Assembly: GCA_026707185.1 (NCBI GenBank)
Contig: JAPOXI010000007.1
Coordinates: 1-19,754 of the forward strand
Direction of reading: 5' to 3'
DNA: 19,754 nucleotides
Source of the DNA: Chloroflexota bacterium
GTDB lineage: Bacteria > Chloroflexota > UBA11872
Part shown: positions 1 through 12,922 of the stretch, one piece after another
Numbering within the stretch: the first letter of the stretch is position 1
Layout of the letters: every line of letters begins with the position of its first letter
Notes under the pieces: generated by a model
What the model was told of the DNA's origin: nothing
Database searches by the model: none
What the model saw: the letters and a program-made list of their open reading frames with translations, nothing else
Position numbers and translations under genes: made by a program

Positions 1-1052
1 CCTATAGCTACATGTGGCCGCGGGACGGGGCGCTGGTGGCGGAGGCGCTGATTGGGGCCAACCAACGGGAACTGGCGGGGCGCTTTTTCCAGTTTTGCCG
101 CCGCGCGCTGCAGCCCGGGGGATTCATGCTGCACAAGTACCACCCGGACGGGTCGCCAGGCAGCAGCTGGCACCCCTGGGCCGACGCCAACCGGCAGCGC
201 GTGCTACCGATCCAGGAGGACGAAACGGCGCTGGTGCTGTGGGCGCTGCGTCTCTATAACCAGCGATTCATGGACACCGAGTTCATCCGCAGCGTCTACG
301 CCCCACTGATCAAGGCGTCAGCGGACTTCATGGTCCGCTATCGACATGAGCCGAGCGGACTGCCGGCGGCCTCGTGGGACCTGTGGGAAGAGCGGCTGGG
401 CATTCATACGTTCACGGTTGCCTCGGTGTGGGCTGGATTGGAAGCGGCGGCGGAGTTTGCGGAGGGATTCGGCGAGCTTGACACGGCCTCGCGCTATCGA
501 ACGGCGGCGTCCGAGATTCGGGCCGCGACTCTGGAGCACCTGTACAACGAGGAGCACCGGCGGTTCCTTCGCCGGGTCGAAGTGAACGAGGACGGATCGC
601 TGACGCCGGACCTGAACGTGGACGCCAGTGTGCACGGCGTCTGGCGGTTCGGGATGTTTGACGCGGACGACTCGCGGGTGCGGTCCACGATGGAAAGCGT
701 GCGGGACGAGCTGACGGTGAAGAGCTCGGTGGGCGGTGTGGCGCGTTACCAGAACGACTATTACCACCAGGTCAGCGGCGACATACGGAACGTGCCGGGC
801 AATCCCTGGTTCATCTGCACGCTGTGGCTGGCACAGTGGTATGTGGCGCTGGCGGAATCGGAGGCCGATTTGAAGCCGGCTCGCGAGATCCTAGCCTGGG
901 TGGCGGATCGTGCCCTGCCGAGCGGCACGCTGGCGGAGCAGGTGCATCCCTATTCGGGCGCGCCGCTGAGCGTGAGCCCGCTGACCTGGAGTCATGCGGA
1001 GTTCGCGACCACGGTGCAGAAGTACGCGGAGAAGGCCGCGCAGATCGCCTAG
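1..1052 (+). CDS. GH15 glucoamylase-like glycoside hydrolase, 3' part (5' end outside the window)
   Basis: This is the C-terminal part of an (alpha/alpha)6-barrel family 15 glycoside hydrolase, probably acting on alpha-glucosides such as starch, glycogen or trehalose. The frame is open to the left edge: bases 3–11 read Y-S-Y just before MWPRDGA, so the methionine at 12 is internal and the N-terminal domain lies off the window. Numbering from that Met, the WDLWEERLGIHTFT block (about 122–135) holds the family's catalytic acid, Glu126 or Glu127. LAEQVHPYSGAP followed by PLTWSHAEF (about 307–331) holds the expected catalytic base, Glu309. Both catalytic regions are therefore present. The stop is TAG at 1050–1052. 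The next gene starts 63 nt downstream with no clear terminator between. Substrate specificity cannot be judged without the missing N-terminal domain. Confidence 0.9.
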   Translation, partial: YSYMWPRDGALVAEALIGANQRELAGRFFQFCRRALQPGGFMLHKYHPDGSPGSSWHPWADANRQRVLPIQEDETALVLWALRLYNQRFMDTEFIRSVYAPLIKASADFMVRYRHEPSGLPAASWDLWEERLGIHTFTVASVWAGLEAAAEFAEGFGELDTASRYRTAASEIRAATLEHLYNEEHRRFLRRVEVNEDGSLTPDLNVDASVHGVWRFGMFDADDSRVRSTMESVRDELTVKSSVGGVARYQNDYYHQVSGDIRNVPGNPWFICTLWLAQWYVALAESEADLKPAREILAWVADRALPSGTLAEQVHPYSGAPLSVSPLTWSHAEFATTVQKYAEKAAQIA

Positions 1053-3112: not shown

Positions 3113-4366
3113 ATGAAGCCAGTAGCCGGTGCGACTCCAACTCGCAGCCGTCTTCCCGATGCGTGGTTGGGTCAGCGCGTGATCATGCATGCGGACATGG
3201 ACGCCTTCTACGCGTCCGTTGAGCAGCGGGAACAGCCGGAGCTTCGGGGACAGCCGGTCATCGTGGGCGGCCCCAGGGATGCGCGGGGGGTTGTGGCGGC
3301 CGCGTCGTATGAAGCTCGCGCCTATGGGATCCGGTCGGCCATGCCGCTGCGCCAGGCTGCCCGACTCTGCCCGCAGGCCGTGTTCGTCCCGGGGCGGATG
3401 CGGCTGTACTCGGACGTCTCCAGTGAGGTGATGCGAATCTTTCGCTCATACTCGCCTCTAGTCGAGCCGCTCTCGCTCGACGAGGCGTTCCTGGACATGA
3501 CGGGCTGCGAGCGACGCCTTGGAGCGCCGCTTGAAATGGCCGACCACGTGCGGGCCGACGTCCGGGCGGCTGTTGATCTACCAATCTCGGTCGGCGTAGC
3601 GACCAACAAGTCCGTCGCGAAGATTGCCTCGACACTGGCCAAACCCGACGGTCGTCGGATTGTGTGCCCCGGCACGGAACAGGAGTTTCTCAACCCGTTG
3701 CCGGTTCGGATGATCTGGGGCATCGGTCCGAAGAGTGACGCCCGCCTGGCCGTGCGCGGGATCCGCACGATCGCCGACCTGGCACGACACGATCCGGAGC
3801 GCATGCGCGAGTTGCGTAAGCCGGCGGCCCGTGCGCGCGGCATTGATGCACGGGACGTGGAGAGCAAACGGACGGCCAAGTCCGTGGGCAATGAGGTGAC
3901 TTTCGGCCGGGACACCGGCGATCAGACCCTGGTTCTGCGGTACCTGCGGCAGCTGGCGGATCACGTGGCGCGTCGTCTGCGAGCCAAGCGTCTTGTCGGC
4001 CGCACGGTCGCGCTGAAGTTGCGATATGCGGACTTTCGCACCATCACGCGGCAAATGACATTGAAGAAGCCGACGGATCAGACCCGGGACGTTTTTGGCG
4101 CTGCACGGGACCTGTTTGTCCGCGTCGCGTCGGACAGGGGCTTCTACCGACTGGTCGGCGTTCACGTAACCGGCATTGCGTCGGCAGCCATGCGCCAGCT
4201 CGAACTTCGTTCAAGGATTGAGCGGGAGCGGCGCCCGCTGGAAATTGCGATGGACCAGGTTCGGGCGCGCTTTGGCGACGCCGCGATAACCCACGCCGCG
4301 TTGCTGGACTCGGCCGCCCGCATGAACAGCGAGCGCTACGCATGGCGTGACGATGTTCTGGGTTGA
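3113..4366 (+). CDS. dinB: DNA polymerase IV (Y-family translesion polymerase)
   Basis: A 417-aa error-prone polymerase that bypasses template lesions. Palm motifs are intact: MHADMDAFYASVE with metal ligand Asp28, SLDEAFLDMTG with Asp123 and Glu124, and VGVATNKSVAKIASTLAKP. The steric-gate region and the GIGPKSDARL helix-hairpin-helix are present, followed by the little finger (about 255–360). ATG 3113 is preferred over the in-frame ATG at 3044 because the longer start would put a strong promoter inside the coding sequence. Two oddities are visible. The segment ERMRELRKPAARARGIDARD looks several residues shorter than the usual thumb sequence. The C-terminal QLELRS sits where a QLxLF-type beta-clamp peptide normally is, with Arg in place of the hydrophobic residue. 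Presumed to be SOS-induced. Confidence 0.96.
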   Translation: MKPVAGATPTRSRLPDAWLGQRVIMHADMDAFYASVEQREQPELRGQPVIVGGPRDARGVVAAASYEARAYGIRSAMPLRQAARLCPQAVFVPGRMRLYSDVSSEVMRIFRSYSPLVEPLSLDEAFLDMTGCERRLGAPLEMADHVRADVRAAVDLPISVGVATNKSVAKIASTLAKPDGRRIVCPGTEQEFLNPLPVRMIWGIGPKSDARLAVRGIRTIADLARHDPERMRELRKPAARARGIDARDVESKRTAKSVGNEVTFGRDTGDQTLVLRYLRQLADHVARRLRAKRLVGRTVALKLRYADFRTITRQMTLKKPTDQTRDVFGAARDLFVRVASDRGFYRLVGVHVTGIASAAMRQLELRSRIERERRPLEIAMDQVRARFGDAAITHAALLDSAARMNSERYAWRDDVLG

Positions 4367-4429
4367 TCCGTTTCGCTGTCGGGATAGCGAACATTCGCTC
4401 GTCGACCGCGGCCGACCGAGGAGTGCCTG

Positions 4430-4987
4430 ATGTCGCGACTACCCGACGACTTCCGCGAATTGTTGCGCGTCGAAGCTGCCAGCGATCAGATCACGGCCGA
4501 GGCCCGCGACGGCGGAGCATCCGGCAGCCGGATGGCAGTGGCCAAGCTCAGCCGGCTCTACCGTTACGCCCTCAGGCACGCGGCCGCCGGCCGGGACCAG
4601 GTGCTTCGTGAAGTAGCCCGCCAGACGCTGCGTCACGGGCCGGCGCACGTGTTGGGCCGCAGGACGCGCGAGGCCCGGCTGTTCGTCAGCTGGGGCCACC
4701 AGGTGCACCGCGAAGTGTTCGCGGCTCGCGCCGGCTTGCGCTTTCAGCCAGGACGGGCGCCGTATGAACTCGTGGCCACCTGGAAGTTCACGTTTCCGGT
4801 CGTCGATCTCGTCCTGTCCGACCTGCATCGGCGGATGCGCGATTACACGCTGGTGGTTGAGGACGGGCCGCGCCGCTACGTGCATGACGGCTGCGGGATC
4901 CGAATGGAATCGAGCACGCCCAGGAGCTACTTCGGAACAACACGACATCTCAACCGACGCGTACCGCCGCTGTTCGCATCGGCGTAG
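4430..4987 (+). CDS. Hypothetical protein downstream of dinB
   Basis: I do not recognise this 185-aa protein. The ATG at 4430 is well supported by GAGGAG (4418–4423) 6 nt upstream. The protein is basic (Arg-rich), with no membrane segment or signal peptide. The N-terminal 90 residues look helical (FRELLRVEAASDQITAEA, VAKLSRLYRYALRHAAAG). The C-terminal half has alternating hydrophobic stretches suggesting strands (ELVATWKFTFPVVDLVLSDL, DYTLVVEDGPRRYVHDG). SWGHQVHREVF has two His residues, but no metal site or known motif can be claimed. It lies 63 nt after dinB on the same strand, so it may share SOS control or have its own promoter. The clean start and ribosome site argue for a real gene. 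Confidence 0.7.
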   Translation: MSRLPDDFRELLRVEAASDQITAEARDGGASGSRMAVAKLSRLYRYALRHAAAGRDQVLREVARQTLRHGPAHVLGRRTREARLFVSWGHQVHREVFAARAGLRFQPGRAPYELVATWKFTFPVVDLVLSDLHRRMRDYTLVVEDGPRRYVHDGCGIRMESSTPRSYFGTTRHLNRRVPPLFASA

Positions 4988-5043
4988 GCGCTGGGAATCG
5001 GGTCGCCAGCGCTTCGAGAGTTGAGGGTGCTGACGGCTTGCGG

Positions 5044-5052
5044 TGCTACCAT
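5044..5052 (+). promoter_or_regulatory. Possible extended -10 promoter of the SbcD/SbcC-like operon
   Basis: TGCTACCAT reads as an extended -10 (TGn followed by TACCAT at 5047–5052), with a loose TTGAGG 20 bp upstream (5021–5026). It lies in the 130-nt gap after the previous gene and would start transcription near 5059. That supports a downstream start (5118) for the next gene rather than the GTG at 5043. The match is weak and rests on position alone. Confidence 0.3.
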
Positions 5053-5117
5053 CGACGGCATCAGGCCGTGCGAACTGTGCAGCCTGTAACACGGGAGGCA
5101 AGGATGAGCTTGTCTCC

Positions 5118-6215
5118 GTGCGCATTGTTCGGCCTCCGGAAGGACGCGCCCGTCTCGCAGTAGCGGCCGGGTTTCGGCTCGGCGCGCGGCCGGCGGCGCT
5201 TGCGCCGTCTCAGCAAGACCGCTTCTGTTCTCTCGCGCAACGCGCCTTCGCCGGTGTTCTGCATCAAGCGGCGAGCGCCGGGTGCCAGGCCGTCGTCTGC
5301 GGTGGGGGGTTGTTCGCCGACACGGTGCCGTCGCTGGAACACGTACGCGCCGCCATGGCGCCGCTGGGGTCAGCGCGACGCGCGGGCATGACGATCATCG
5401 CTACCGGCGATTCGGCAGACCAGGACACGGACGGAACCAGCTTCCTCGCCGACGTTGGGCTGATTGACACGGTGCTGGACGCGCCAGGTCCCGACACGAC
5501 GCTGATCTCCGCCGCGAATCTGCAGATTGCCCTCGTGACCGGCGATTCGCGCGGAGATCTGGACGGGGCGGATCTGGTCGTCGCGCTGGACACTCCGGGG
5601 CACGATGCCGGTGAACCCGCGGCGATGGCCGCCAATGCCGACGTGGTGATCGACACACGCGCATGCCAGGCCGCGTTCGATCGCCTGGGAGATGTTCCGG
5701 TGATTCAAACAGGCTGGGCGGGGCCGTCGTTCGAGCGCGACACACAGCCGGGGTTCGTGGTGCTGGACGTCGATCCGCGTGACGGCGTGGTTCCAAGCTT
5801 CGTCGAGACTGCCGCGATTCGGCCCGCTCAACTGATGATCGACTCACCGCAGACTGGCAGCGAGATTGATCGCCTGATCGCCCCGGAGTTGGGCGCCGTC
5901 GGAATCCTGGACGTGAAGATTCAAGGTCCGGTGCCACGCTCGGTCTGGCATGACGCCGATCCCGAGGGGCTGATCGATCGCGCCGCCGCGGCGGGCACGC
6001 TGCTGCGACTCGACATTGACGGGATGGTCATCGTCGAAACGGCGAGCGAAACCGGACTTCCAGAGCGTCCATCCTTCCTGGTCAATGCACGGCGGGTCAG
6101 CGAGCGACTGCTGACAGCCGCCGATGATGACATCGAACGAGACGTTGTGGCTGCCGCCCGCTCGCGCATCGTCGAGATTGCCCGACGCCGTGAGCCGACA
6201 AAGGTTGTCACGTGA
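5118..6215 (+). CDS. SbcD/YhaO-like metallophosphoesterase homologue with degenerate active site
   Basis: A 365-aa protein that aligns along its length with SbcD/Mre11-type nucleases, but the metal ligands appear lost. Where the family has a D-x-H-x-G strand, it reads AAGFRLGARP (Asp to Gly18, His to Arg20). The GDLFD position reads GGGLFAD (Asp to Gly64), GNHD reads GDSA (97–100), the LLHG His is Thr141, and the GHxH motif is replaced by T180-R-A-C183. Flanking family features persist: VPVIQTGWAGPSF then PGFVVLDVD, and a C-terminal VKIQGPVPRSVW segment like the SbcD capping region. GTG 5118 is my start, chosen to begin just before the first core strand; GTG 5043 is an alternative. The stop overlaps the next GTG by 4 nt, so the two products are probably made together. 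Catalysis by the usual mechanism looks impossible. The alignment was made by eye. Confidence 0.7.
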   Translation: MRIVRPPEGRARLAVAAGFRLGARPAALAPSQQDRFCSLAQRAFAGVLHQAASAGCQAVVCGGGLFADTVPSLEHVRAAMAPLGSARRAGMTIIATGDSADQDTDGTSFLADVGLIDTVLDAPGPDTTLISAANLQIALVTGDSRGDLDGADLVVALDTPGHDAGEPAAMAANADVVIDTRACQAAFDRLGDVPVIQTGWAGPSFERDTQPGFVVLDVDPRDGVVPSFVETAAIRPAQLMIDSPQTGSEIDRLIAPELGAVGILDVKIQGPVPRSVWHDADPEGLIDRAAAAGTLLRLDIDGMVIVETASETGLPERPSFLVNARRVSERLLTAADDDIERDVVAAARSRIVEIARRREPTKVVT

Positions 6216-9199
6216 TCTTCCTGGAACGATTGGTCGCCCACCACGTCGGCGAGCTCGAGAGTGTCGACATCGCCTTCGCCGCGCGCGGACGTCACCTGAT
6301 CGAGGCATCCCCGGCCGAGGCGACAGCCCTGAGCGCCGCGCTGCGATGCGCGCTGTTTGGCGACGTGGCACCTGGTTTCGGCCGACGGGAGGGCGCGCTG
6401 GTTGGTGCATCCATCGTCGCCGGCGGCGCCACCTACGCCATCGAGCGGCGAATCGCGAAGGACGGCCGCCTGACGACAGCCCTGGCACGCGGCGGGCCGT
6501 CAGGGCTCGTCCCGGTCACGGGCGTGGATCGGATTGAGCGCGAGCTCGATCGCCTCCTGGGCGCAGACAGCGAGGCGCTGGCCGCGCTGATTTGGCCGCC
6601 GCGCGATCTGCAGCCGCTCGCCGGTCGTTTGCGCGAGATCGTGCGCGCCTGGCTCGGCTCGCGCCGCATGAACGTGCTGGCCGCCAGCGTGGAGGTCAGT
6701 CAGGATTTAGAGGAAGCCGAACGGCTGGCGTCGCTCCACGTCGCGCTGGCCACGGCCGCCGAGTCTCACGCCGCCGCGACCGCCGAGGTTCAGCGACTGG
6801 AGTACGTGCGCAAGCGAGACCGCACGGCACGCGCGGTGCGTCACCTGGAGGAAGCCGACCACCTTCTTTCCGAGGCTGAGGCCGAGCGACTCCAGATGGC
6901 GACCCTGGGCAAGCAATTCGAGCAGCAGCTTGAGCAGGCCGAACGCGCCCTGGCCCTTGCGCACGTGCTGGACCATCGCGATGCGGCGATCGAACGTGTT
7001 CGAATCGCTCGCGCCGGGCGAGCAGCGAGCGAGAAGCAAATCGCGGGTCTGGGCGACCTGCGCTCGGAGATGACGACTTACGAGCAGCGTCTGGCCACGC
7101 TGGAACGCGGTCTATCCGCCTATCGGCGCGCCGACGAGGCGGCCGCCGCTGCCGACAGCGCCCGACGCGCCAGCGCCATCGTCGGCGAGGAGACGGCCGC
7201 ACTGGAACGCGCGCGGCAGGAACTGTCCGCGAGCCGCCGCAAGGCCGAACGGCTCGCGTCCGAGGCCCAGCGTGCGCAGACCCTCAGGGACCGCGCGGCT
7301 GACGACTCGCACCTTCCCACCGCGCACCGTCTCTGGCGCGAGTGGATGGACGTTGCGCCGGCGGCCGAGAACGATGTTGCGACGAGCAAGAGCGAAGCGG
7401 CGGTGCTGCACGATCAACTGGAAACGCTGGAATCGGCGGTGCGGGCACACGCCCGAGACGCCCAGCTGCGGGCGGGCTGGCGCCGGCTCGCGGCCGGCGG
7501 CGCCGTGGCGGGATTGTCGGCAAGCGTGCTGGGCCTCCTGGCTGTCGCACCACTGACACCCGTGGGACTGACGGTTGGACTGACGGGCACTTTGGCCGGA
7601 ATCTGGCTCACGCTGGCGGATCGTGGCCGCAGTTCAGATCAAGGTCGTCTCGAACGGGAGCTTGATTTCGTGGCCCGCGAACTCGAGCAGGCGGAACGGC
7701 GCCTGGGGTCGGCCGAGGAGGCGCAGCACGCCCGAACTCGGGTCGAACGCCAGCTGCACGCACTCGAACTTGAGGTTCCAGCGTCCGCCGAACGTGCGGC
7801 GATCTTGCGCGACAGCGCCTCTGTGCGCTTGCGTCGGATGGCCGATGGCGACCAGCGGCGCGACCCCGCGGACGTGCGCCGTACCGCGGATACCGCGGCC
7901 GAGGCCGCCGATGACGCCGCCCGGGAGGTTCGACGCCTGGAAGCGCGCGTCGCCACGCTGAAGCGCGGCGATCCGGAGCAGCAACTGATCACCGCGGCCA
8001 CCGAGCGGCGCACGCAACTGGAGAAGGCAGCCGGCGCCCGCCGGGCAGCCGAGCGTCTGGCCACCGAGCTGCAGATTGGAACCTCGCCGGATGCCATCGA
8101 CAGGGCGCGTCGCGACACTCTCCGAGGGCTGCAGCAGCTGCGACAACGGCTGAGCGGCGGCCCAGACCTGGAGCTGCAGCGCCAGGTGGCGATACGCGAC
8201 GAATCTCGGGCGAACAACGAGCTGGCGGCGTTAGACGCCCAGATCGCCCGGCTATGCCACGACGAATGTGGGGGCGCCGAGCATCGACCGCGGGCCGTGC
8301 AGCTGGCGCGATTGGCCGCTGTTACCGCACAGCTCGGCAGCGAACGGGCGCACGCGGCGGCTCGGGCGGCCGGTGCGCGCGGCCGCACGGTCCAGACGGC
8401 GTCACGTCGGCACACCACCGATCTGGCGGCCGCACTGCGAGCCCTGGGGGTGGAGGCCAGCGCCGACCCGACCGCGGCCGAGGCTCGGGCCGCCATTCCA
8501 GACCTGGACGCGGAGCCGATTGCGGCGGAAGAGATTCGCCGCGCGTTGCGCCAGGCGCGGGACGCCGTGCGCCGTACCGAAGCGCGCGTCCAGACGCTGG
8601 AGCTACGGGCCGGAATCGAGCAGACCGACATCAACCGCGAGGAAGCCCAGGCTCGGCTTGACCAAGCCGTTCGAACGCGGCGCATTCGCGAGATCGGGCG
8701 CACCATCGTGAACGGCGCGCTGGACGCCTCAATTGAGAGTTTGCCCGCCGCAATCGAGCGCGAATTGCGGATCATCCTGCCCGCAGCCAGCGCCGGGCAC
8801 TTTTGGGACGCCCGCATCTGCGAGGGCCTGAGCCTCGAGGTCTGGGACGCGGCGGCGGGTTCCTGGCAGACTTCCCGCGGTCTGAACGATCCGAGCCGCG
8901 AGCAAGTCGAACGTGCCCTGGCCCTGGCCCTGGCAACCGCCGGCCCGCCGCTGGACGCAACGGACCTGCCGGCTTTTCTCTGGCTTGAGCAGTCGGCGTC
9001 GGACCGCGACGGGTCGACCTTGCAGGCCCTGGCATTGGCAGCCGGCCTGGGCGTCGCCGCTCAGCGCTACCCCCAGGTGATTGCAACCGGGCGAGGTCTC
9101 ACAGCCAGCCTTGGACAGTTCGACCGCGTCACCCAACTCATCAGCGGGCATGCGGCCGATAACGTCCAGGCCGTCAGCAGCATTCGTGAGGCCGGATAG
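6212..9199 (+). CDS. SbcC/YhaN-like coiled-coil protein with degenerate ATPase motifs and a membrane hairpin
   Basis: A 995-aa protein with the Rad50/SbcC layout: globular N-terminus, long heptad-rich Ala/Arg/Glu coiled coils (about 150–425 and 475–850) and globular C-terminus. The Walker A position (31–39, between RHLI and LSAALRCALFG) reads EASPAEATA, with no Gly-Lys-Ser/Thr. ELDRLLGADSEALAALIW then PPRDLQPL (129–136) matches the family's PQGxL Q-loop region. The signature region reads LNDPSREQVERALALALA (from 891) instead of LSGGTREQ. Walker B reads PAFLWLEQS (920–928) without the Asp-Asp/Glu pair. QVIATGRG (955–962) lacks the H-loop His. Residues about 428–469 form two hydrophobic helices with a Pro turn, so the coil apex is probably membrane-embedded instead of carrying a zinc hook. 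GTG 6212 overlaps the preceding stop (GTGA). It is an intact 995-codon frame, so it is a pseudoenzyme rather than a decayed pseudogene. Confidence 0.78.
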   Translation: MIFLERLVAHHVGELESVDIAFAARGRHLIEASPAEATALSAALRCALFGDVAPGFGRREGALVGASIVAGGATYAIERRIAKDGRLTTALARGGPSGLVPVTGVDRIERELDRLLGADSEALAALIWPPRDLQPLAGRLREIVRAWLGSRRMNVLAASVEVSQDLEEAERLASLHVALATAAESHAAATAEVQRLEYVRKRDRTARAVRHLEEADHLLSEAEAERLQMATLGKQFEQQLEQAERALALAHVLDHRDAAIERVRIARAGRAASEKQIAGLGDLRSEMTTYEQRLATLERGLSAYRRADEAAAAADSARRASAIVGEETAALERARQELSASRRKAERLASEAQRAQTLRDRAADDSHLPTAHRLWREWMDVAPAAENDVATSKSEAAVLHDQLETLESAVRAHARDAQLRAGWRRLAAGGAVAGLSASVLGLLAVAPLTPVGLTVGLTGTLAGIWLTLADRGRSSDQGRLERELDFVARELEQAERRLGSAEEAQHARTRVERQLHALELEVPASAERAAILRDSASVRLRRMADGDQRRDPADVRRTADTAAEAADDAAREVRRLEARVATLKRGDPEQQLITAATERRTQLEKAAGARRAAERLATELQIGTSPDAIDRARRDTLRGLQQLRQRLSGGPDLELQRQVAIRDESRANNELAALDAQIARLCHDECGGAEHRPRAVQLARLAAVTAQLGSERAHAAARAAGARGRTVQTASRRHTTDLAAALRALGVEASADPTAAEARAAIPDLDAEPIAAEEIRRALRQARDAVRRTEARVQTLELRAGIEQTDINREEAQARLDQAVRTRRIREIGRTIVNGALDASIESLPAAIERELRIILPAASAGHFWDARICEGLSLEVWDAAAGSWQTSRGLNDPSREQVERALALALATAGPPLDATDLPAFLWLEQSASDRDGSTLQALALAAGLGVAAQRYPQVIATGRGLTASLGQFDRVTQLISGHAADNVQAVSSIREAG

Positions 9200-9957
9200 T
9201 GCTTGCGACCGAGCCCCGACGCCACTCGGTGCGCCGACGCCCTGCCACTGGAGGCAAGCGCCCCCATCGCCGTGCGCATACCCGAAGCATCAGATCCGCC
9301 GAATCCGCCAGGACCGTCACGGCCAAGGATCGCGAAACGGCTGCCGCTGCGGCTCACGAATCAGGCGGCAGACGCGCGGTCCGAATACGAAGGGGCGCGG
9401 CCGTCAGGGAGCTACGAACAGCGGCGGGCACTTCAGACGGCGCGCGGCCGGAAGCGGCTCGCCCCGAATCGGACTCTGCCCCCGAACGTGTCGACGACCC
9501 TGGCGGCCGGTTGCAGCTGACGCTGGAGCTCGGTGACCCTGAGCCACGTGGCTACGAGGCGTCCGGCAAGCCTCCAAGAGAGCGAATCGACTTCGCTCGC
9601 TGGCTCTGGCGGGCCATGAGCATGGGAGCCGCGACCTGCCCCGTCCTGCTGGGATTCCAGCTTGTCTTCACAGATCCGGCACATGGGCTCAACGTGATGG
9701 CGGTCGTAATCACCATGTCCTTTGGCGCCCTGTTCGCCACCTGGACCATTGAATACTGGCTGCGGCATGGGAATGCCACGCGTGCAGTTCGCGCCCAGAT
9801 CTGGACACTCACGCGGCACGCAGTGCTGGCGTCGGTCGGCGTGGCCGCCATGGCCGTAAGCGCCCTGAACGGGACGGCGAGTTACGGCCTGCTGATCCTG
9901 GTGGCACTTACGTTGATCGTTGCCGACATCGTGTTGCGCAGGCTTCGCATCCGCTAG
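9199..9957 (+). CDS. Four-helix membrane protein with basic disordered N-terminus
   Basis: A 252-aa protein of unrecognised family. Residues 1–135 are low-complexity and Arg/Ala/Pro-rich, probably disordered and cytoplasmic. The remainder has four hydrophobic segments: about 141–158 (weakest), 165–185, 207–225 and 229–247, ending in RRLRIR, which favours a cytoplasmic C-terminus. GTG 9199 overlaps the TAG of the SbcC-like gene by one base (TAGTG), so it is translationally coupled to a protein that itself has a membrane hairpin; the two may associate in the membrane. The start is uncertain: a second frame is open over 9203–9520, and in-frame TTG 9511 would give a shorter protein holding all four helices. 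No enzymatic motif is visible. Confidence 0.65.
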   Translation: MLATEPRRHSVRRRPATGGKRPHRRAHTRSIRSAESARTVTAKDRETAAAAAHESGGRRAVRIRRGAAVRELRTAAGTSDGARPEAARPESDSAPERVDDPGGRLQLTLELGDPEPRGYEASGKPPRERIDFARWLWRAMSMGAATCPVLLGFQLVFTDPAHGLNVMAVVITMSFGALFATWTIEYWLRHGNATRAVRAQIWTLTRHAVLASVGVAAMAVSALNGTASYGLLILVALTLIVADIVLRRLRIR

Positions 9958-10733
9958 TGCATCACGACGCATCGGACGATCCCTATGCGCAAATCGCCGA
10001 GCTGTACGAAGCCGAACACCGCAACTGGACGGACGACCTCGGCCTGTACCTGGCGCTGGCGGCACGCGCCGGCGGTCCCGTGCTCGAACTCGGCTGCGGA
10101 TCGGGCCGCGTGACCATTGCCCTGGCCAAAGCCGGGCACGAAGTTCACGGTATCGACTCGTCGGCGGCCATGCTGGCGATCGCCCGCGACAAGCTGGCGC
10201 AGCGGAATCTGCCCGTGACCTTCACGCTCGGCGATATGCGGCGATTCGAGCGTCAGCGCGACGTTGGGTTGGTGATTTGCGCGCTGGACACGCTGCTGCA
10301 CCTGCCGTCTGCCGACGACGTCCGCGACACGCTCGCCGCCGCGCATGCGGTTCTGCGGGCCGGTGGTCTGCTGGCAATCGACGTCGTCCATCCTTCACCA
10401 GACTTGCTGGCGATGCGCGACGGGGTCGTTAGGCGTCAGTCGACCTTCGCCGGGCCGGGAGGCACCCACGTCACGCACTTTGTGTCCTGGGATGTCGACC
10501 CCGATGCCCAAACGATTGATACCACGCACTTCTACGATTGGATGACTGGTGCGGGCTTCGTACGGCGGCGTACAACGTCCTTCCGGCTGCGCTACATCAG
10601 ACGCGGCGAGGCGGAAGACGGCCTGCGAGCCGCGGGTTTCGGCGACGTGGAGCTGTACGGGAACGCCCAGCTCGACCCGTTCGAGCCCGACAGCGATCGC
10701 ATGATTTTCGTCGCGGCCAGACCCGGTGCGTAA
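9957..10733 (+). CDS. Class I SAM-dependent methyltransferase
   Basis: A 258-aa Rossmann-fold methyltransferase. SAM-binding motif I is VLELGCGSGRV (42–52), followed by the acidic end of strand 2 (HEVHGIDSSAAML), motif II-like TFTLGDMRRF, and the post-motif GLVICALDTLLHL and LRAGGLLAIDVVHPSP. The C-terminal half has the mixed sheet typical of small-molecule methyltransferases of the Methyltransf_25/11 type. The substrate cannot be told from sequence. GTG 9957 overlaps the preceding stop by one base (TAGTG), making it the fourth gene of the coupled unit. Its TAA is only 3 nt from the stop of the convergent GNAT gene, with no room for a standard terminator. Confidence 0.88.
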   Translation: MHHDASDDPYAQIAELYEAEHRNWTDDLGLYLALAARAGGPVLELGCGSGRVTIALAKAGHEVHGIDSSAAMLAIARDKLAQRNLPVTFTLGDMRRFERQRDVGLVICALDTLLHLPSADDVRDTLAAAHAVLRAGGLLAIDVVHPSPDLLAMRDGVVRRQSTFAGPGGTHVTHFVSWDVDPDAQTIDTTHFYDWMTGAGFVRRRTTSFRLRYIRRGEAEDGLRAAGFGDVELYGNAQLDPFEPDSDRMIFVAARPGA

Positions 10734-10736
10734 GCG

Positions 10737-11669
10737 CTAGAACGACCAGCGCCCAATTGGCCCGTGGCGGCCGCGCCAGGCAACGTAGGCGTCGAGATCA
10801 CTGACCAAGCGAAGTGTTGAAGCGATTGGCGCCATACCAAGACTCAGCAGCCGGCGGAGCACAACGCCGTTCGCCAGCGCCAGGTCAACGTCTAGCGACG
10901 ACAGACCTCGCAGCGCGGCCGAGCGCGCGGCCGCGCCCACGAAGACCTCGACATCGTGACTTTGCGGGTCGCCGGCTACGACAAGCCGCAGGTCCAGCGA
11001 CCCATTCGCGGCGGGTAGCAATGGATCCGGATCGCACAGCAGTGTGACGTCGGGACCGATGAGGAGGTAGCTGGCCGGCGAATAGGGTTGCGTCTGAACC
11101 CTGGCGGCAACCGACGCGTCACGGACTCTATCGTGGTCGGTCAGGTTGGAGCATGCGATTTCGCGCCAACCCCTGAGGTCAGCCGCTCCACCGAAGTTCC
11201 CGGCCACGCCACGCAAGCGCACGGTGAGATCGGCTGGCCGGAATCCTCGGCGCGCATACATCCCGGCGGCATGAGCCGACGTCGGCGCCACCTCCATGCC
11301 CGTGAGCGACCGACCGCTCGCCGCCAGGAAGTCCAGCGCGTGGTCCGTCAACGCCGCACCTACCCCCGCGCCTCGAAAGCCGGGCGCGACGCCCAGACCC
11401 GCGATCCAGGCCGCGTCAGGCTCAACGACCGCAAACACGGCGCCAACGGGACCGTAGCCCGCAACCTCGGCCACCCAGGAACCCGCGGAACACTGCCGCC
11501 ACTGGCGAACACGGCTTGCAGTCAGCGGCAAATCCACGCTGCCAACCGTCGGGATGGCCCCGCCGTCGGGCTTCCCGTAGGAAGCGCGCAGCAACCGGGC
11601 CGCCGCCTCGGCATCATCGTCACGCATGCGCCGCACGGTCGCCTGAACCCCTCCATTGGTGCCAGTCAC
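10737..11669 (-). CDS. GNAT-family N-acetyltransferase, two-domain
   Basis: A protein of about 310 aa from GTG 11669. The N-terminal half is a standard GNAT fold: VQATVRRMRDDDAEAAARLL (strand 1/helix 1), then WIAGLGVAPGFRGAGVGAAL with the RxxGxG acetyl-CoA loop, helix 3 and GMYARRGFRPADL. The C-terminal half (about 190–310) resembles a second, degenerate GNAT domain without the acetyl-CoA loop, ending in DLDAYVAWRGRHGPIGRWSF. The acceptor is unknown. GTG 11732 and GTG 11681 are in-frame alternatives, but starting at 11732 would leave 2 nt to the divergent aminotransferase gene and no promoter space. It converges on the methyltransferase with a 3-nt gap. Confidence 0.85.
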   Translation of the reverse strand: MTGTNGGVQATVRRMRDDDAEAAARLLRASYGKPDGGAIPTVGSVDLPLTASRVRQWRQCSAGSWVAEVAGYGPVGAVFAVVEPDAAWIAGLGVAPGFRGAGVGAALTDHALDFLAASGRSLTGMEVAPTSAHAAGMYARRGFRPADLTVRLRGVAGNFGGAADLRGWREIACSNLTDHDRVRDASVAARVQTQPYSPASYLLIGPDVTLLCDPDPLLPAANGSLDLRLVVAGDPQSHDVEVFVGAAARSAALRGLSSLDVDLALANGVVLRRLLSLGMAPIASTLRLVSDLDAYVAWRGRHGPIGRWSF

Positions 11670-11734
11670 GATAGAATCCACACGGCGGCTCTCAGGCAGC
11701 CGCAGTCTGTCCCCCAAAACGAATTGCCGCACCC

Positions 11735-12922
11735 ATGACCACCCTGTCTCATCCTGATCTGGCCAGCGCCATGAGCCGTCTGGGCACCGAAACCGCTTTC
11801 TCCGTACTGGCGAGAGCCAAGGCCCTGGAGCGTGAAGGCCGCGACATCATCCATCTTGAGATTGGTGAACCTGATTTCGACACACCGGCCAACATCATCG
11901 AAGCGGCCAAGCGGGCCTTGGACGATGGATTCACACACTATGTGCCGTCGGCCGGAATCCCCGAGGCGCGCGAGGCGATCGCCGCCGACGTGGCCGAGTC
12001 ACGCGGGATCGCGGTCGAACCGGAGCAGGTGGTCATCACGCCGGGCGCCAAGCCGATCATGTACTTCGGAATCACGGCACTTTGCGGTCCAGGCGACGAA
12101 GTGATCTATCCGGACCCGGGATTCCCGATTTACGAGTCGGTGATTCGGTTTGTGGGCGCCACGCCGGTGCCAGTGGCGCTGCGGCCGGAGAATCAGTTCC
12201 GGCTGGACCTGGACGAGCTGGAGGACAAGCTCTCGGATCGAACGAAGCTGCTGATTCTCAACTCGCCGCAGAATCCCACCGGGGGCGTGCTGCCGCCTGA
12301 GGACATTCGTGCGATCGCGGACCTGGTGGCGGAGCGGCCGGTGCATGTGCTGAGCGACGAAATCTATGGGCGCATCATGTATGGCGAGGTCGAGCAGGCC
12401 TCGATCGCGGCGTGTCCGGGGATGGCCGACAAGACGATGATCCTGGACGGATTCTCAAAGACGTACGCCATGACGGGCTGGCGGCTCGGGTACGGCGTGA
12501 TGAATGCCCAGCTGGCGGAGGCGGTGGCCCAGCTGCAGACCAACTGCACCAGCTGTACGGCCGCGTTCATCCAGATGGCCGGAGTCGAAGCCCTGACAGG
12601 GCCACAGGACGCCGTGGATGGCTTTGTGGCCGAGTTTCAGCGGCGGCGCGATGTGATCGTGGACGGCCTGAACAGCCTGGAGGGCGTGGACTGCCAGCGA
12701 CCGGCCGGGGCCTTTTACGTGTTTCCGCAACTCAGCGGCTTCCGCGTCAGCACCAACGAGATCGCCGACCGCCTGTTGAACGACGCGGGCGTGGCGGTGC
12801 TGGCCGGGACGGCCTTCGGCACGGTGGGTGCTGACTCGCTGCGCCTGTCCTTCGCCAACTCGGTCGAGAATCTGGAGCGCGCCGTGGAGCGCATGCGTCC
12901 AGTCCTGGCTGCCTGCCGCTAA
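11735..12922 (+). CDS. PLP-dependent aminotransferase, class I/II
   Basis: A 395-aa fold-type I aminotransferase of the aspartate/aromatic aminotransferase group that transfers amino groups using pyridoxal phosphate. Landmarks: HLEIGEPDFDTP (substrate-binding N-terminal segment), YVPSAGIPEAREAIA, ITPGAKPIMY, NSPQNPTGG with the cofactor-contacting Asn, LSDEIYG with the Asp that binds the pyridine nitrogen, Schiff-base Lys242 in GFSKTYAMTGWRLGY, and the C-terminal Arg in DSLRLSFAN that binds the substrate carboxylate. Length is normal. Donor specificity (Asp, Ala or aromatic) cannot be assigned. ATG 11735 has no evident ribosome site. The B6 cofactor genes pdxS/pdxT lie about 4 kb away, which is thematically consistent but not proof of a link. 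Confidence 0.94.
   Translation: MTTLSHPDLASAMSRLGTETAFSVLARAKALEREGRDIIHLEIGEPDFDTPANIIEAAKRALDDGFTHYVPSAGIPEAREAIAADVAESRGIAVEPEQVVITPGAKPIMYFGITALCGPGDEVIYPDPGFPIYESVIRFVGATPVPVALRPENQFRLDLDELEDKLSDRTKLLILNSPQNPTGGVLPPEDIRAIADLVAERPVHVLSDEIYGRIMYGEVEQASIAACPGMADKTMILDGFSKTYAMTGWRLGYGVMNAQLAEAVAQLQTNCTSCTAAFIQMAGVEALTGPQDAVDGFVAEFQRRRDVIVDGLNSLEGVDCQRPAGAFYVFPQLSGFRVSTNEIADRLLNDAGVAVLAGTAFGTVGADSLRLSFANSVENLERAVERMRPVLAACR

Follow-up and report, generated by a model that had tools for sequence, protein, structure and literature searches.

Gene organisation of the cluster

This study concerns a stretch of 19,754 nucleotides (nt) from a Chloroflexota bacterium (contig JAPOXI010000007.1 of assembly GCA_026707185.1; hereafter the window) and, within it, four successive genes on the forward strand which we call A, B, C and D. 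Gene A (5118-6215) encodes a pseudo-Mre11/SbcD protein of 365 amino acids and gene B (6212-9199) a pseudo-Rad50/SbcC protein of 995 amino acids, with coiled coils and a mid-protein hydrophobic hairpin. These are followed by gene C (9199-9957), encoding a small protein of 252 amino acids with a pI of 11.5 which its hydropathy marks as a multi-pass membrane protein, and by gene D (9957-10733), encoding a class I S-adenosyl-L-methionine (SAM)-dependent methyltransferase of 258 amino acids. On balance we lean towards the view that A and B make up a dead, membrane-tethered scaffold of the Mre11-Rad50 type, co-expressed with an older module consisting of a membrane protein and a methyltransferase.

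The open reading frames (ORFs) of the window were checked and proved to be real, with overlaps of 4, 1 and 1 nt as proposed in a preliminary description of this DNA. B starts at 6212, ahead of the end of A at 6215 (overlap GTGA), C starts on the last nucleotide of B (9199) and D on the last nucleotide of C (9957), both within TAGTG. A GTGA or ATGA overlap between A and B was found in all 20 loci with a degenerate B (see below), the window included, and A to D are probably carried on a shared transcript. At the C/D junction of one locus, L012, there is a gap of 66 nt and no overlap. An alternative GTG start of A is present at 5043; since it falls within a promoter-like element that is itself conserved, the start at 5118 is to be preferred.

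The A and B proteins

The structure model of A predicts a calcineurin-like fold with the capping domain of Mre11. Its sequence is homologous to Mre11/SbcD, with a weak single-sequence NCBIfam match (17.1 bits, cut-off 550), and neither A nor B of the window gave an above-threshold Pfam family. The catalytic positions of A were compared in 20 sequences of what we call the degenerate clade (the window and 13 + 6 loci, L011 being partial), in three relatives whose B retains a P-loop, and in seven references with intact motifs. All eight ligands of the dinuclear metal site (D-x-H, GD, GNHD, H and GHxH) are present in the seven references. In the degenerate clade this site is missing: six of the eight positions are empty (five in 0/19 sequences, the last His in 0/20), the motif I His occurs in 4/19 and the first His of GHxH in 1/20. 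This pattern supports the view that A is a catalytically dead nuclease subunit. Near its C-terminus the model has two helices (residues 319-357; 6072-6188) in the position of the helix-loop-helix by which Mre11 binds Rad50, and they may well be the corresponding domain.

For B, modelling predicts a head of the ABC type interrupted by long coiled coils, the fold of Rad50/SbcC. According to motif alignment, the place of the P-loop is occupied by EASPAEATALS (residues 31-41; 6302-6334), and residues 890-928 (8879-8995) carry a degenerate signature (LNDPS) and a degenerate Walker B (LEQ). The P-loop Lys is found in 0/20 degenerate loci, in 3/3 P-loop relatives with an available N-terminus and in 7/7 references. 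In the same three groups, S-x-G of the signature is present in 0/20, 2/4 and 7/7, the Walker B Asp in 6/20, 4/4 and 7/7, and the catalytic Glu in 0/20, 1/4 (Asp stands in the other three) and 7/7. Because S-x-G is kept in two and the catalytic Glu in one of the four P-loop relatives, ATP hydrolysis is doubtful in these as well. The idea of an inactive SbcCD-like pair, put forward in the preliminary description, is thus upheld, A being without the Mre11 metal ligands and B without the ATPase motifs while the predicted folds are kept.

Hydropathy predicts a membrane hairpin in B at residues 425-468 (7484-7615), with one hydrophobic segment in the window (439-457) and two in L010, L055 and L057. 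The predicted local distance difference test score (pLDDT) of the model is below 50 over most of residues 427-465, hence we make no structural claim for the hairpin. No CxxC zinc hook was found in B of the window, the only Cys residues being at 46, 682, 686 and 870.

Distribution and selection

A scan of genome contigs found 14 loci, from which L014 was dropped as a chimera. Positions 1-1869 of this public contig of a metagenome-assembled genome (MAG) carry B and C sequence that matches L013, probably joined to other DNA on both sides. In the 13 remaining loci, all from Chloroflexota MAGs, the order A-B-C is kept in 13/13 and D is present in 12; the contig of L002 ends inside D. Over the window and 19 further loci the four-gene order is kept wherever the contig reaches, down to about 30% identity. 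Rare adjacency of A and B would have told against the preliminary description; they are adjacent in every examined locus that shows both. Of 41 available genomes from the class to which G005 belongs, 19 have a full-length degenerate B; five of the scanned loci come from G001-G005 and others overlap, so locus and genome counts are not additive. The sister group G006-G011 shows about 27-33% identity in A and B. Several of the MAGs found by the contig scan presumably come from sponges, to judge by their isolate names. The class of G005 may plausibly be identified with the class UBA2235/UBA11872 of PMC10608941, where UBA11872 is reported solely in the coral-and-sponge category.

Pairwise Nei-Gojobori ratios of nonsynonymous to synonymous substitution rates (dN/dS) were calculated for four pairs (three for gnat). 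They were 0.18-0.30 for A, 0.18-0.26 for B, 0.14-0.47 for C and 0.17-0.27 for D; the neighbours gave 0.01-0.06 (lexA), 0.03-0.07 (aspC), 0.05-0.20 (tmk), 0.11-0.39 (orfX) and 0.30-0.37 (gnat). Genes A to D are under purifying selection, which judged from these ratios appears moderate in strength. Their evolution, faster than that of lexA and aspC, would agree with decaying remnants under relaxed selection that have not yet been deleted. We consider this very improbable in view of the uninterrupted frames of B (985-998 codons across examined loci that are about 30-92% identical), the dN/dS of about 0.2-0.3 and the many invariant residues, and we prefer a scaffold maintained by selection.

Three genomes with a degenerate B were checked, and an ordinary SbcCD is present elsewhere in each. 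Such genuine pairs, together with folds that are kept and catalytic residues that are lost, are what would be expected if A-B regulated genuine SbcCD or YhaON-like complexes, or acted on them as a dominant-negative partner, by forming mixed dimers through kept interfaces. Nevertheless the extreme divergence of A (17-18% identity to two genuine SbcD) makes mixed dimers unlikely and C-D would be left unexplained, which renders this explanation improbable compared with the dead scaffold that we favour.

The C-D pair

C has a basic, variable N-terminal tail and a conserved core from about residue 107. It had been described as a four-helix protein: three hydrophobic segments pass the threshold in the window copy and four in L057, so that four helices are likely, with one of them below threshold in the window. 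In L012 (13001-14680) the N-terminal tail of C is long and rich in Ala and Pro, and includes several similar repeats. The C of the P-loop relatives is related to that of the degenerate clade (hhalign 1.5e-19).

D belongs to the class I SAM methyltransferases, with a Pfam Methyltransf_25 match of 73.9 bits (cut-off 27) and an intact motif I (LELGCGSGR); residues E44, G46, G48, G50 and D67 are invariant across 10 aligned sequences. Against the daptide-type methyltransferase model NF041820, from ribosomally synthesised and post-translationally modified peptide (RiPP) pathways, it scores 98.1 bits, under the cut-off of 175.

A strict C profile matches 24 of 400 genomes of the phylum, 23 of them being G001-G023, and a wider one matches 117/400 at E up to 0.01; many of these matches are weak, and outside the class the majority do not lie beside D. 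The D family is found at E 1e-30 in at least 223/400. By comparing the positions of profile-search matches, which yields lower bounds, C was found directly upstream of D in at least 14 further genomes of the class (G025, G026, G027, G029, G031 and G033-G041) and at least four outside it (G055, G114, G198 and G212). Confinement of the C-D adjacency to the present genome, which would have told against the preliminary description, is therefore not what is seen. At least 16 of these 18 genomes have no A-B beside C-D, 11 by tblastn of the stretches and five by contig positions; this check covered all but G055 and G198. In L142 and L144 D is preceded by a membrane gene that appeared by eye to be of another family and was left out of the count. 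Since C-D is more widely distributed, the module is probably older than its tie to A-B.

As for the surroundings of C-D without A-B, the pair lies directly after a selB gene (Pfam) in L104 (8740-10641) and before a lipoyl synthase gene (Pfam) in L149 (7897-8823), and similar-looking neighbours were seen by sequence in L147, L148 and L151 and again in L150, L152 and L154.

This wide occurrence of C-D, together with genome G024, which has A-B before the class I aminotransferase gene aspC (11735-12922 in the window, forward strand) and neither C nor D at the thresholds used, raises the possibility that the dead scaffold A-B and the C-D pair are unrelated units at one syntenic locus, the overlaps reflecting compact packing alone. 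We hold this to be a serious possibility, though a doubtful one. C-D before aspC follows A-B in every locus seen (the window, L001, L003, L005-L011, L013, L055-L060, L070 and L071, with G023 split over two contigs), the differently placed cluster of G004 still has its four genes side by side, and the junctions are mostly tight, L012 excepted. We therefore keep to a scaffold co-expressed with the C-D module.

Relatives with partial loss of motifs

Genomes G020 (L070) and G021 (L071) carry A-B-C-D before aspC, with a hisC-like aminotransferase gene and an H+-pyrophosphatase gene upstream and not lexA-dinB. In G023 the two halves of the cluster sit at the ends of separate contigs; in G022 B-C-D is seen. 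The P-loops in the B proteins of these relatives are GAQDNGKSS, GPNEAGKSS and GANEAGKTS (the N-terminus of G022 is absent from the data). In their A proteins D-x-H and GNHD are gone, as is most of GHxH; the GD Asp is present in 1/3 and the His of the fourth motif in 3/3. In G024, A-B is placed between a hisC-like gene and aspC, A having 1/8 ligands and B a P-loop-like sequence (AAAGMGKTS). A protein search with a profile of A from the P-loop clade gave 16 homologues, and in P0086-P0088 six of the eight ligands are kept, only N and H of GNHD being lost. No viral relatives of P0088 were confirmed. The partial losses in the P-loop relatives and in the six-ligand homologues of A suggest a stepwise decay, in which GNHD would have gone before the other ligands and the P-loop last.

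In the tree of B a split with support 1.000 sets the degenerate clade apart from the P-loop and reference proteins, and in that of D the proteins of both clades form one group, separated from seven outside D (0.993). The intermediates probably lie on the line leading to the degenerate clade.

Expression and genomic context

Upstream of A, and downstream of orfX, there is a putative extended -10 promoter (5042-5052, forward strand; TGcTACCAT at 5044-5052), proposed from its conservation: TG-n-TACCAT precedes A in 9/9 aligned loci. A generic sigma-70 scan of 4300-11000 gave no match. It is followed by a conserved region (5094-5163, forward strand) with a Shine-Dalgarno-like GGAGG (5094-5098) and an out-of-frame mini-ORF of 19 codons, well spaced for ribosome binding and running from ATG 5104 to a stop at 5161-5163, which overlaps the start of A. 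The surrounding DNA is nearly invariant in the nine aligned loci, with GGAGG or GGGGG. The start codon of the mini-ORF, ATG or GTG, lies 14-15 nt ahead of that of A in 18/18 loci of the degenerate clade (L005 and L011 left out); it has 19 codons in 11 loci, 43 in L012 and two (Met-Ala) in six, being reduced in G006-G011 to Met-Ala-stop just before A. The -10-like element and the invariant leader DNA point to a promoter of its own for A, and the mini-ORF may act as a leader peptide or in translational coupling.

The preliminary description had noted that the cluster directly follows lexA-dinB and saw in this a possible link to DNA damage or chromosome organisation. In the window the upstream genes, all on the forward strand, are lexA (1646-2245), a gene for a tetratricopeptide repeat (TPR) protein (2259-2966), dinB (about 3116-4366) and orfX (4430-4987), an ORF of 185 amino acids whose matches to DUF4130 and to the putative DNA-repair family TIGR03915 stay below threshold. 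Downstream, a GNAT-family gene (gnat, 10737-11732, reverse strand) is convergent to D and precedes aspC. The order lexA-dinB-orfX-A-B-C-D-gnat-aspC-tmk is kept in G006-G011 (L056 starts at dinB), in whose loci no match to the TPR gene was found. The gnat gene is beside the cluster even in L012, and had no match in L013.

The link to lexA-dinB does not hold. In L012 (G004) the cluster, with gnat, is away from these genes, the P-loop relatives have other genes upstream as described above, and the promoter-like element precedes A. An SOS/LexA link was rejected on this second location and on those other neighbours. The window was also scanned with GAACNNNNGTTC, which we took to be the SOS box and which may not be that of this organism: it has no exact site, not even before lexA, and sites with one mismatch are at the level of chance (8 found, 6.75 expected).

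Comparison with known systems

With Mre11-Rad50/SbcCD the pair A-B shares both predicted subunit folds, the order of nuclease gene then ATPase gene and the long coiled coils. It differs in having no metal ligands, P-loop, signature or catalytic Glu, in the mid-protein hydrophobic hairpin that B has instead of CxxC, and in the two extra overlapping genes. As the defining catalytic features of Mre11 and Rad50 are missing, A-B should not be filed as SbcCD; its parts have known folds and the pair is a variant of the SbcCD kind.

The pairs in L064, L067, L069 and L073 are of the YhaO-YhaN-like kind, which resembles SbcCD but has a hydrophobic hairpin. They likewise combine a phosphoesterase with a Rad50-like protein, which in L064, L067 and L073 has two mid-protein hydrophobic segments; however, their GNHD and P-loop are intact and, according to the ORF lists, no C-D follows them in L064 and L067. 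B of the window has no match to the Pfam families AAA_27 or AAA_23 above cut-off, and that of the P-loop relative L071 passed AAA_23 (46.5, cut-off 27) and missed AAA_27 (20.9, cut-off 22).

VPS29 is a metallophosphoesterase-fold scaffold of the eukaryotic retromer and thus resembles A in the use proposed for its fold, but it has no Rad50 partner; A was not accepted as a member, the profile E being about 0.9 only. Wadjet, Lamassu, MukBEF and Smc5/6 share the SMC-type head and coiled coils in Foldseek and VIA matches (the top structural matches of B were Smc5/6 and MukB with Foldseek, and Rad50 with VIA), but no partner genes in common were seen. A known defence system was considered and set aside, as PADLOC gave no convincing match: its only two were mad2 (E 4.4e-21), over 118 residues of the methyltransferase part of D, and LmuC (E 0.032), over a coiled coil of B. 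Among the titles and opening lines of abstracts listed by the literature searches, which include few subscription journals, neither a double-dead Mre11-Rad50 pair nor an A-B-C-D cluster is described.

Proposed role and significance

We hypothesize that A and B descend from an active nuclease-ATPase of the Mre11-Rad50/SbcCD type, nearest in build to the YhaON-like kind, and were turned into a nucleotide-independent, catalytically dead scaffold. A dimer of A would sit on the heads of B through the C-terminal helix pair of A, and the coiled coils of B would reach the membrane, where the hairpin would anchor them. The heads could then keep a ligand, DNA being the first candidate, close to the membrane, with no cutting and no cycling. 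The older C-D pair would have joined this compact run of overlapping genes and would act at the membrane, perhaps with the scaffold as its target or intermediary.

Several points weigh against this proposal. Membrane anchoring of B is not universal, since the hydropathy of B in the P-loop relatives G020 and G023 reveals no hydrophobic hairpin. The mean entropy of the helix pair of A (1.17; 18 homologues) is below those of the core (1.39) and the cap (1.44), but the pair is not the most conserved stretch: several 20-residue blocks of the core are equally low or lower, with 0.97 at residues 61-80 around the old GD motif, so that a kept contact with B is weakly supported. Moreover A of the window is acidic (pI 4.6), a property that hardly favours direct contact between A and DNA. 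The dN/dS values of A to D, though like that of gnat, are several-fold above those of lexA and aspC, and the constraint is thus only moderate. As to the descent, the homologues P0086-P0088 are known from A alone, and the tree of A does not place the degenerate A beside that of the P-loop clade (other placements have support of about 0.8). Long branches probably account for this discordance, and the two clades may have decayed in parallel; common descent at the locus consequently rests on synteny, C, D and B. Finally, the membrane-anchored complex of all four products suggested in the preliminary description is supported only in part: C-D occurs without A-B in at least 16 genomes and A-B without C-D in G024, which weakens the case for one obligate four-protein complex.

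Besides its catalytic functions, the MRX complex is stated in PMC6567933 to have structural ones. The roles of Mre11-Rad50 beyond cutting and ATP cycling are usually studied with mutants, and here evolution seems to supply a pair without either activity, joined to a membrane-protein/methyltransferase pair. It is an evenly poised judgement that this is the first machine of the Mre11-Rad50 family in which both enzymes are dead clade-wide, among the members examined, and which has been selected as a nucleotide-independent membrane scaffold, with the stages of loss (GNHD, other ligands, P-loop) laid out in its relatives and the methyltransferase as perhaps its sole catalytic part. The relatives at intermediate stages would make the structural role directly testable and offer a plausible order for the decay of a two-enzyme machine.
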